Assembly: GCA_030533085.1 (NCBI GenBank)
Contig: JAUNJZ010000004.1
Span: 1-64,000, forward strand
Direction of reading: 5' to 3'
Source of the DNA: Synergistaceae bacterium
Lineage (GTDB): Bacteria; Synergistota; Synergistia; Synergistales; Synergistaceae
Length of the DNA stretch: 64,000 nucleotides
Every line of letters starts with the position of its first letter. Positions within the stretch are counted from its first letter, which is position 1. A program made the translations under genes and the position numbers. A model generated the notes under the pieces. That model had not been told where the DNA came from. It saw nothing but the letters and a program-made list of their open reading frames with translations, and searched no databases. Of this stretch, positions 45,462 through 50,158 are shown in pieces.

Positions 45462-45499
45462 GCCGCACAGGATTATACTCCTGTGCGGCTATTTGTCAA
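45462..45499 (-). promoter_or_regulatory. dnaJ promoter embedded in an inverted repeat
   Basis: On the minus strand TTGACA (45494-45499) and TATAAT (45472-45477) are 16 bases apart. The ten-base arms GCCGCACAGG (45480-45489) and CCTGTGCGGC (45462-45471) flank the -10 box exactly, so the whole repeat could be a repressor site. A second pair of eight-base arms (45406-45413 with 45443-45450) lies downstream in the leader. Confidence 0.7.
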
Positions 45500-45527: not shown

Positions 45528-45749
45528 TTAGCCGAGTTTTGCCATCTCGTCAAGAACAAATCTGGCTTCGATTTTAATAGATGTTGCGTCGTCGCCCTTG
45601 GCTTTTTCTTCGAGCTTCGCAAGGCGCTCTTTGAGCTTCGCGATTACGTCGGGCGTACCTTTTCCGCCGGCGAGGGCCGCGTTGGCTTTCGCGATTACTT
45701 CCTGCGCCTCGGCGCGGGCTTCTTTGAGATCCGCTGCTTTATCCATCAT
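45528..45749 (-). CDS. DnaK-lid-like small protein, single unit (73 aa)
   Basis: A 73-residue, highly charged all-helical protein encoded between the two-unit homologue and dnaJ. Its residues from DLKEARAEAQEVIAKANAAL to DATSIKIEARFVLDEMAKL align with the C-terminal helical lid of the DnaK encoded upstream ([19 protein letters not shown]) and with both halves of the 157-residue neighbour (DATSIKVESKFVLDALAML). It has no signal peptide, membrane segment or cysteine. AAGGA lies ten bases before the first ATG. It contains no ATPase or beta-sandwich domain. The likeness to the DnaK lid is seen directly; a role with DnaK is inferred from the operon. Confidence 0.85.
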   Translation of the reverse strand: MMDKAADLKEARAEAQEVIAKANAALAGGKGTPDVIAKLKERLAKLEEKAKGDDATSIKIEARFVLDEMAKLG

Positions 45750-45885
45750 TTTTATTTCATCCTTTCAAAGCAAACCGCTTGCCGCGGCTGCGAAGTGTGC
45801 TATAATCTAACTATTCGTTTAAGGGGCTGTATTCGAAGCGCTGGGTGGTTCTTCGGATATGGCCTTGTTTCTTTCCCGTCCATTA

Positions 45886-46359
45886 CTATTTCAGCATCGC
45901 GAGAGCGTCGAGAACGAACTTCGACTCGACTTTGATTGAGGTCGCGTCTGTTCCGGCCAGCTTCTCTTTAAGATGCGCTACGCGGGTGATGAGCTTCGCT
46001 CTCACCGCGGGATTTCCTGCGTTCGACTTGAGGGCCTTCTCCGCCTCCGCGAGGACTTTTTCTCCCTCCTGAACGGCCGTGGGGAAGTCCTCCGCCTTTG
46101 CCACGGCACGCGCCGCGACATGTTCCGCGAGGAGGTTGAGGGCGTCTACGACGTAGCGGGCCTCATCTTTTATCGAAGCGGCGTTTTCCCCTTCGAGCTT
46201 GCGGGAGAGCTTCGCGACTCTCTCCATTACCGTAGCCTGTTCCGGCTTGTCTGTGTTTCCTGCCGAAGCGAGGTATTTCTTCGCTTCCGCCAGTACGGCT
46301 TCGCCCATCTGGCGGGCCGCGGCGAGATCCTGAGTCTTCATTTCTGCATCCATGGTCAT
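45886..46359 (-). CDS. DnaK-lid-like protein with two tandem units (157 aa)
   Basis: A 157-residue charged helical protein made of two homologous units, residues ~11-79 and ~91-157. Unit 1 ends NAASIKDEARYVVDALNLL and unit 2 ends DATSIKVESKFVLDALAML; both match the lid of the adjacent DnaK (residues ~503-570, ending [19 protein letters not shown]). The spacing of the ERVAKL / TRVAHL / ERIGKL helix before the signature is also conserved. No ATPase, peptide-binding beta-sandwich or secretion signal. AAGGA stands four bases before the first ATG and ten before the second (46353). It lies 110 bases after dnaK and 136 before the 73-residue homologue. It probably arose by duplication of the dnaK 3' end; function unknown. 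Confidence 0.85.
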   Translation of the reverse strand: MTMDAEMKTQDLAAARQMGEAVLAEAKKYLASAGNTDKPEQATVMERVAKLSRKLEGENAASIKDEARYVVDALNLLAEHVAARAVAKAEDFPTAVQEGEKVLAEAEKALKSNAGNPAVRAKLITRVAHLKEKLAGTDATSIKVESKFVLDALAMLK

Positions 46360-46413: not shown

Positions 46414-46447
46414 GCGCGATTCACGGGCTTTCGCCCGTGAATCGCGC
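46414..46447. other. 15-bp perfect hairpin with GNRA loop after dnaK
   Basis: A perfect 15-pair stem (46414-46428 with 46433-46447). As minus-strand RNA the loop is GAAA, a very stable tetraloop. No T tract follows on the minus strand, so it is not a normal terminator; it may shield the dnaK message or be a processing site between dnaK and the lid-like genes. Confidence 0.75.
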
Positions 46448-46469: not shown

Positions 46470-48302
<1,833 letters not shown>

Positions 48303-48503: not shown

Positions 48504-49076
48504 TTATCCGCCGTATCTGCCCACGCGCACCTGCGGCGCTTTGAGCACGCGCCCCGCCAGCTTGTAGCCGCGGCAAAGAGCTCCGATTATATGTCCGTCC
48601 TTTGATTCGTCGTCGATAGCTTCCATTGAAACGGCTTCGTGGAGCGCCGGGTCAAATTTTCCCTCAACGGGAATGAATTCCAGCCCGAGACGGCAGAGGC
48701 CGTCGCTGAACTGCTTTATGACCATTTCCATCCCCTTTGCGAGGCTGCTTTCCGGCTCCTTGACCGCCGCCGCTATCCTCTCAAGATTCTCCAATACCGG
48801 CAGCATCTCGTTTATCGCCTGTTCCGCCGCGAGCTTCGCGTTGCTCTCGCGGTCGCGCTCCATTCTGGTGCGGAGGTTGAAGTAATCGGCTCTTGAACGG
48901 GCGACTTCTTCTTTCAGCTTTTTTATCTCTTCCCTCTGTCTCTCCGTCTCTTCCGTCAGCGCCGCCAGCTCCGCCGCGTCAGGCTGCGAAGCGCTCTCTT
49001 CGGCGGGGGCCTCGCTTACCGGCTCTTCGTTTACCTGCGGCTCTTCGCCGCGGGCCTTCTTCTCATGGTCGCTCAT
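48504..49076 (-). CDS. grpE: Nucleotide exchange factor GrpE
   Basis: A 190-residue GrpE that releases ADP from DnaK. An acidic N-terminal region (EEPQVNEEPVSEAPAEESAS) precedes the long dimerising helix (EETERQREEIKKLKEEVARS) and the C-terminal beta domain with GMEMVIKQFSDGLCRLGLEF and ALCRGYKLAGRVLKAPQVRV, the family signature near the C terminus. The ATG follows the hrcA stop directly (TAAATG), with GAGAGG upstream. Second gene of the CIRCE-controlled operon. Confidence 0.95.
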   Translation of the reverse strand: MSDHEKKARGEEPQVNEEPVSEAPAEESASQPDAAELAALTEETERQREEIKKLKEEVARSRADYFNLRTRMERDRESNAKLAAEQAINEMLPVLENLERIAAAVKEPESSLAKGMEMVIKQFSDGLCRLGLEFIPVEGKFDPALHEAVSMEAIDDESKDGHIIGALCRGYKLAGRVLKAPQVRVGRYGG

Positions 49077-50096
49077 TTATTCCTCTCCTCTTTCGCCTGA
49101 TTCGGAGTCCAGCTTGCGCAGCACCCCGTCGATCGCCGTTATTACCTTTTCGTAGTCCATTCTTTCAGGGCCGATGACGCCGACTACGGCCTTCTGTCCC
49201 CCCGCCTCTCCGGTCGCCGCCACCAGCGCCGAGCGTTCCATTCCCGGCAGCTCGTTCTCGTCGCCTATCATAATGTTCATCTCATCTATCGAGCAGCGGT
49301 CGACGAGCTTTTCCATATTCTCTTCCTCTTCGAGGAATGAGCAGAGCGCCTTTATGCGGCCAAGATCCTGAAAGTCCTGCAAATTCATGATATGGCTGAA
49401 GGAACCTGTAAAAATCTTTGTCTGCGGAGCGCCGAGCATCGCGTCTATCTCCAGCACGGCCTTTGAACATTCCTCGTGATAGCGTCCGATCTCGTCGAGC
49501 AGCTTGCCCTTCAGCGTCTTTTTTATCTCGCTCCACGCGCGGCCGGAGAAGCGGTTCAGCTTTGAGGCCAGCTCGTCAAGATCCTCCTGCGTCATATCGA
49601 CCGGCATGTCGATGAACTTCTGATGGACGAGCCCTCCCTGAAGAACCACCAGCAGCAGGACCTGCCTCTCGCACATCCGAACGAAGCTCACATGGTGAAA
49701 GCGTACCGTGTCGAGCGGCGTTATGGCCGCGATCCCGACGTAATCCGACACGCGGCTCAGCATCTCCGAGGCCGATTCCAGCACCTTCTCAAGCCCCTGC
49801 CTGTGCTCCATCATCTTTTTTAGTAATTTTACAGACGGGCCGGCGCTGTTCACACGTTGAAGTACCGAATTAACGTATAGTCTATATCCCTGAGTTGTGG
49901 GAATTCTGCCTGACGACGCGTGCGTCTGCCGGAGGAAGCCCAGATCCTCAAGGTCGGACATTTCGTTTCGGATCGTCGCTGAGCTGCGCCCCGTAAGGTA
50001 ACGGCGTGAAACAGTGCGCGAACCGACCGTCTCTCCGCTCTTGATATATTCATAGACTACGGAGAGGACGACTTCCAACTGTCTTTCTGTAATCAT
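49077..50096 (-). CDS. hrcA: Heat-inducible transcription repressor HrcA
   Basis: A 339-residue repressor that binds CIRCE. The winged-helix N terminus contains MITERQLEVVLSVVYEYIKS, GETVGSRTVSRRYLTGRSSA and the family motif ATIRNEMSDLEDLGFL, followed by HASSGRIPTTQGYRLYV. The C-terminal domain has the usual PERMDYEKVITAIDGVL ending. It is the first gene of the operon and sits just downstream of a CIRCE element, so autoregulation is expected. HrcA normally depends on GroEL for activity; groESL is not in the window. Confidence 0.95.
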   Translation of the reverse strand: MITERQLEVVLSVVYEYIKSGETVGSRTVSRRYLTGRSSATIRNEMSDLEDLGFLRQTHASSGRIPTTQGYRLYVNSVLQRVNSAGPSVKLLKKMMEHRQGLEKVLESASEMLSRVSDYVGIAAITPLDTVRFHHVSFVRMCERQVLLLVVLQGGLVHQKFIDMPVDMTQEDLDELASKLNRFSGRAWSEIKKTLKGKLLDEIGRYHEECSKAVLEIDAMLGAPQTKIFTGSFSHIMNLQDFQDLGRIKALCSFLEEEENMEKLVDRCSIDEMNIMIGDENELPGMERSALVAATGEAGGQKAVVGVIGPERMDYEKVITAIDGVLRKLDSESGERGEE

Positions 50097-50131: not shown

Positions 50132-50158
50132 TTAGCACTCAATGGGCACGAGTGCCAA
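50132..50158. promoter_or_regulatory. CIRCE element (HrcA operator)
   Basis: TTAGCACTC, nine bases, then GAGTGCCAA: the CIRCE inverted repeat with one difference in one arm. It lies between the hrcA promoter and the hrcA start, about 35 bases before the gene. Confidence 0.93.

Follow-up and report, generated by a model that had tools for sequence, protein, structure and literature searches.

Free-standing relatives of the distal DnaK lid encoded between dnaK and dnaJ in two genera of Synergistaceae

Gene order and expression signals at the dnaK-dnaJ locus

We analyzed a stretch of 64,000 nucleotides from a Synergistaceae bacterium (contig JAUNJZ010000004.1, positions 1 to 64,000; hereafter the window), in which two small genes are located between dnaK and dnaJ. 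The order on the minus strand, read 5' to 3', is CIRCE, an hrcA-like gene, a grpE-like gene, dnaK, a long lid gene, a short lid gene and dnaJ. An earlier sequence-only reading of this DNA had placed two genes for proteins of 157 and 73 residues on the dnaK strand at this site, and their coordinates were reproduced here. The features of the locus are as follows:

45886..46359, minus strand: long lid gene, 157 aa, made of two tandem DnaK-lid units only
46123..46341, minus strand: lid unit 1 of the long protein (profile match, E 1.1e-33)
45889..46098, minus strand: lid unit 2 of the long protein (profile match, E 9.7e-33)
45528..45749, minus strand: short lid gene, 73 aa, a single DnaK-lid unit
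46590..46808, minus strand: DnaK's own lid (distal helix B, helices C and D), the parent domain
46470..48299, minus strand: dnaK, 609 aa, the sole full-length Hsp70 found in the genome
44235..45392, minus strand: dnaJ, 385 aa, assigned by family scan
48504..49076, minus strand: grpE-like ORF, 190 aa, named from its position and by eye
49077..50096, minus strand: hrcA-like ORF, 339 aa, named from its position downstream of CIRCE and by eye
50132..50158: CIRCE operator, TTAGCACTC-N9-GAGTGCCAA, one mismatch, upstream of hrcA
46414..46447, minus strand: 15-bp perfect hairpin directly 3' of dnaK (z -5.8)
45472..45499, minus strand: dnaJ promoter TTGACA-16-TATAAT, kept in relatives without lid genes
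45462..45489: palindrome GCCGCACAGGA-N6-TCCTGTGCGGC, covering the -10 element of the dnaJ promoter

The long protein contains nothing beyond its two units, which are linked by approximately 10 residues. A ribosome-binding-like sequence, AAAGGAAG, is located immediately upstream of the long lid gene, and another, AAAGGATG, upstream of the short one. Both lid genes were also found at the same place in a second genome (G020) that belongs to another genus of the same family, with identities of 85% and 75%. This genome and that of the window (G000) have one full-length DnaK each.

The CIRCE element that the sequence-only reading had assigned to this cluster was found upstream of hrcA, which supports heat-shock control of the operon downstream of it. 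For the lid genes themselves, CIRCE control or heat-shock co-transcription is no more than plausible, given the strong hairpin 3' of dnaK and the separate consensus sigma-70 promoter of dnaJ. Hairpins of different sequence occupy the same place after dnaK in relatives. In some of them a terminator-like run of T follows, which is not the case here, and read-through into the lid genes, perhaps at a reduced level, is plausible. No Rfam family matched the hairpins. In addition, a strong hairpin is present between the lid genes of G020, with a weaker counterpart in the window (45750-45885), and in both genomes it is followed by a ATTATAGCA element. The palindrome over the dnaJ promoter, allowing at most one mismatch, was detected in G000, G020, G015 and G029, in each case at this site and nowhere else, and was absent from G026; it is possibly a dnaJ-specific operator or an RNA hairpin.

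Relationship of the units to the DnaK lid

Sequence comparisons confirmed that the two proteins are free-standing relatives of the distal DnaK lid, comprising the second half of helix B and helices C and D. Each unit could be aligned with the lid of the adjoining DnaK with a score of 128-155 (BLOSUM62), compared with at most 72 for shuffled sequences (2000 per unit). When the lid was compared by BLAST with the 487 stop-to-stop ORFs of the window, the units of the long protein were recovered at E 5e-15 and 5e-13 and the short protein at E 3e-12, and the best ORF besides both lid proteins and DnaK had an E-value of 4.2. A chance likeness due to helical composition was ruled out by the shuffles and by this search. 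The profile-profile comparison with the Hsp70 lid, which had been proposed as a check, gave a probability of 98% (hhalign, E 2.1e-13) when the profile of all six units from the two genomes was set against DnaK lids taken solely from other genera, so as to avoid circularity. Searches against the PDB were less sensitive: the top matches of a combined profile were residues 528-585 of E. coli DnaK, each of them weak (E 0.13-0.5), and single-sequence searches returned chance matches only. In Pfam and NCBIfam, no family, PF00012 (Hsp70) included, reached its threshold with either protein; the NCBIfam DnaK model gave a weak match to the long protein only (E 0.032), far under the cut-off.

The unit corresponds to residues ~497-570 of DnaK in the host genome, equivalent to ~525-598 in E. 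coli. The sequence-only reading had described a helical unit of ~65 residues aligned with DnaK ~503-570; the repeated unit, its match to the lid and the signatures quoted near the unit ends were all correct, and its length (about 70-73 residues) and the DnaK range had to be adjusted. As had also been proposed, an ATPase is absent, both proteins being made up of lid units alone, and so is a peptide-binding beta-sandwich, the predicted models of both proteins being all-helical. Helix A and the hinge to the beta-sandwich are missing as well, since the units begin at approximately E. coli position 525.

The predicted structures are consistent with the sequence comparisons. The model of the short protein (pLDDT 89.7; helices 3-28, 33-50 and 55-70), whose underlying alignment contained DnaK lids, had DnaK or HscA lids at all of PDB ranks 1-11, with TM-scores of 0.82-0.88 and rmsd of 1.2-1.6. 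Because Foldseek E-values are weak for such a small bundle (0.1-0.4, as expected for 73 residues), more weight was given to the TM-score and to the consistency of the match list. The model of the long protein, built from two lid-protein sequences only, had DnaK at PDB ranks 2-11. The units therefore match E. coli DnaK lids in the structure-based check as well, and they have the three-helix bundle, homologous to DnaK ~525-598, of the Hsp70 lid domain (SBD-alpha).

The residues by which the lid contacts the substrate domain have a different fate. The latch of E. coli DnaK is formed by D431-H544 and R467-D540, and the N537-M404 bond is a further lid contact (PMC8215388). D526, N537, S541 and Y544 (E. 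coli numbering) are present in 16 of 16 DnaK lids of the phylum and in none of the six units, in all of which position 544 is Ala. Position 540 is acidic in the 16 aligned DnaKs and, among the units, in the long protein only. Thus, the five latch or conserved helix-B positions of SBD-alpha (526, 537, 540, 541 and 544) are not preserved as a set in the units, and the replacement of lid-contact residues means that the groove-closing face has been dismantled. In the DnaK of the host genome, both partners of the latch, D431 and R467, are still in place (TAADNQ and PAPRG). At the same time, the positions of the bundle core and the helix-D motif SIK-x-E-x-x-[FY]-V-x-D are kept in the units, and the identity of units to their own DnaK is 0.22-0.36 in helix B and 0.48-0.57 in helix D. 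It is this combination, latch positions lost in all six units with the core and the helix-D motif retained, that is new.

We also observed that S583, [YF]590 and V591 are common to the units and the DnaK of the same two genera and are absent from the DnaK of other genera; the DnaK of these two genera has Y at position 590. This sharing may reflect common descent, gene conversion, co-evolution or a shared surface.

Distribution, selection and origin of the lid genes

A survey across the phylum, suggested earlier as a check on conservation, did not reveal broad conservation. Two profiles were run against 188 genomes of the phylum; the second one matched a lid in 174 of them, and no further free-standing lid was found. 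Lid genes are thus present in 2 of the 63 genera searched. Searches of genome contigs, viral contigs and phage records, from which near records were possibly left out, detected no relatives of the lid proteins. Weak profile matches to short frames elsewhere were judged, as a group, to be DnaK pieces at contig edges, parts of larger frames or matches with near-chance E-values.

Between the two genera, dN/dS was 0.080 for the long gene, 0.095 for the short gene, 0.075 for dnaK and 0.078 for dnaJ; these values, from two genomes only, are approximate because dS is high (0.9-1.9, synonymous sites near saturation). Such ratios, about the same as those of dnaK and dnaJ, support the maintenance of the lid genes by purifying selection, bear out the earlier view that the genes are real, and rule out that the units are degenerate duplicates.

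The phylogenetic tree of lids united the six units in a single clade (94/94) and joined this clade to the DnaK lids of their own two genera (98/97); unit 2 of the long protein and the short protein were sisters (89/83). Based on 81 columns, the tree is not strong beyond these groupings. In eight relatives without lid genes, dnaK is followed by a hairpin, a conserved block with the dnaJ promoter and then dnaJ, with a dnaK-dnaJ spacing of 168-239 bp. The conserved block ends in TAATCTTGACAAA (TAATATTGACAAA in one of them) and TATAAT of the dnaJ promoter. In other relatives, dnaJ starts almost immediately after dnaK. In the two genera that have them, both lid genes sit between the hairpin 3' of dnaK and the dnaJ promoter. 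Given where the tree places the units, the lid genes probably go back to a local tandem duplication of the dnaK 3' end that took place in an ancestor shared by both genera. The simplest history would be one such duplication followed by a further duplication.

Possible roles and comparison with known systems

Judging from the residue changes, the units probably do something other than serve as spare lids, since these lid copies are altered at the very positions used for clamping. According to the part of PMC8215388 that cites Mashaghi 2016, a cut of the lid in the middle of helix B abolished the stabilization of folding intermediates by DnaK, and weakening of the groove had little effect on this protection. 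Considering that the lid can contact clients itself and that the latch is lost in the units, we tentatively favor an ATP-independent, lid-derived module that would associate with incompletely folded proteins or with a shared chaperone partner, as a holdase or adaptor. The units would form stable small three-helix bundles, single or paired in tandem, which would act without ATP alongside DnaK. With the latch face toward the substrate domain gone, they would no longer close the peptide groove, and the binding of partly folded proteins or a partner under stress would fall to what is left of the bundle surface, chiefly on the side of helices C and D. The net effect would be additional lid surface, i.e., a lid-derived holdase or adaptor. 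The lid by itself is not known to act as an efficient holdase. The idea that the units replace absent Hsp20 or ClpB is unsupported: the presence of Hsp20 in G000 and of ClpB in both genomes leaves no obvious gap to fill (no Hsp20 match was found in G020, which is 99% complete).

Ranking close behind this module is a possible, somewhat less likely role as an adaptor, in which the conserved face of helix D binds either the DnaK lid, giving hetero-oligomers, or another partner, DnaJ for example, and the two-unit protein serves as a bridge. Helix D is the best-kept part of the units, their tandem pairing suggests bivalency and the genes are placed between dnaK and dnaJ. The residues common to the units and the DnaK of the same genera but not of others (S583, [YF]590 and V591) would fit such a surface, although recent common descent also predicts them.

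It is unlikely that the duplicated bundle, being stable, has become a small structural or regulatory protein with a non-chaperone role, whose location reflects local duplication only. The strong divergence of helix B, the loss of the defining latch and the narrow distribution would agree with this; however, the genes have been kept beside dnaK in both genera under dnaK-like constraint.

Even more doubtful is that a free unit docks in trans on the beta-sandwich of DnaK, capping it or competing with the tethered lid and thereby tuning substrate release. The predicted lid fold of the units, the adjoining sole dnaK, the latch partners D431 and R467 retained by DnaK and the acidic residue at 540 of the long protein are compatible with such docking. 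On the other hand, N537 and the side chain at 544, lid contacts according to PMC8215388, are replaced in all six units, as are the invariant D526 and S541; moreover, the units have no helix A or hinge, and a free unit would have the tethered lid as a competitor. The loss of latch residues argues against such trans-capping, and the first of the roles suggested by the sequence-only reading, in which the units would cap the substrate domain of DnaK or compete for it, is weakened by the replacement of the contacts at N537, 544 and, in part, 540. Finally, a non-functional leftover of the dnaK 3' duplication, with which the narrow distribution would agree, is strongly disfavored by the open frames with ribosome-binding-like sites, the dN/dS of 0.08-0.10 and the retention of both genes in the two genera despite their high synonymous divergence.

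With regard to known systems, the E. coli DnaK lid (SBD-alpha; 1DKX, 4R5L) has the same distal helix B-C-D bundle and is related to the units in both sequence and fold, whereas the units have no beta-sandwich or ATPase attached to them, lack helix A, the hinge and the C-terminal tail, and have replaced latch residues. The lid of HscA (1U00) shares the predicted bundle fold, and its latch is weakened and without the N537-type contact (PMC8215388). HscA itself, however, is a complete Hsp70 that has both an ATPase and a groove. The small heat-shock proteins Hsp20/IbpA would be similar in action should the units prove to hold clients independently of ATP, but their fold is an unrelated beta-sandwich and the host genome has a separate Hsp20. 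A precedent for one part of Hsp70 as a protein of its own is STCH/HSPA13, a truncated eukaryotic Hsp70 consisting of the ATPase only. In contrast to the lid proteins, it represents the opposite end of Hsp70, is eukaryotic and has an ATPase.

The lid domain of Hsp70 is well known; its free-standing arrangement is not. In agreement with the sequence-only reading, no described system with separate lid proteins was found in the open-access literature (subscription papers were not covered). We consider the chances about even that these proteins represent an undescribed class of bacterial stress proteins, in which a freed Hsp70 lid with a lost latch acts as a one- or two-lid ATP-independent chaperone or an adaptor of the DnaK network. 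Whether the lid itself has a client-binding role, apart from groove closing, is difficult to examine as long as it is attached to DnaK, which is its normal state. In these genomes, the lid has been separated naturally, its latch removed and the rest kept under selection. The lid proteins could therefore show directly what a lone lid does, and could serve as natural DnaK-modulating tools.
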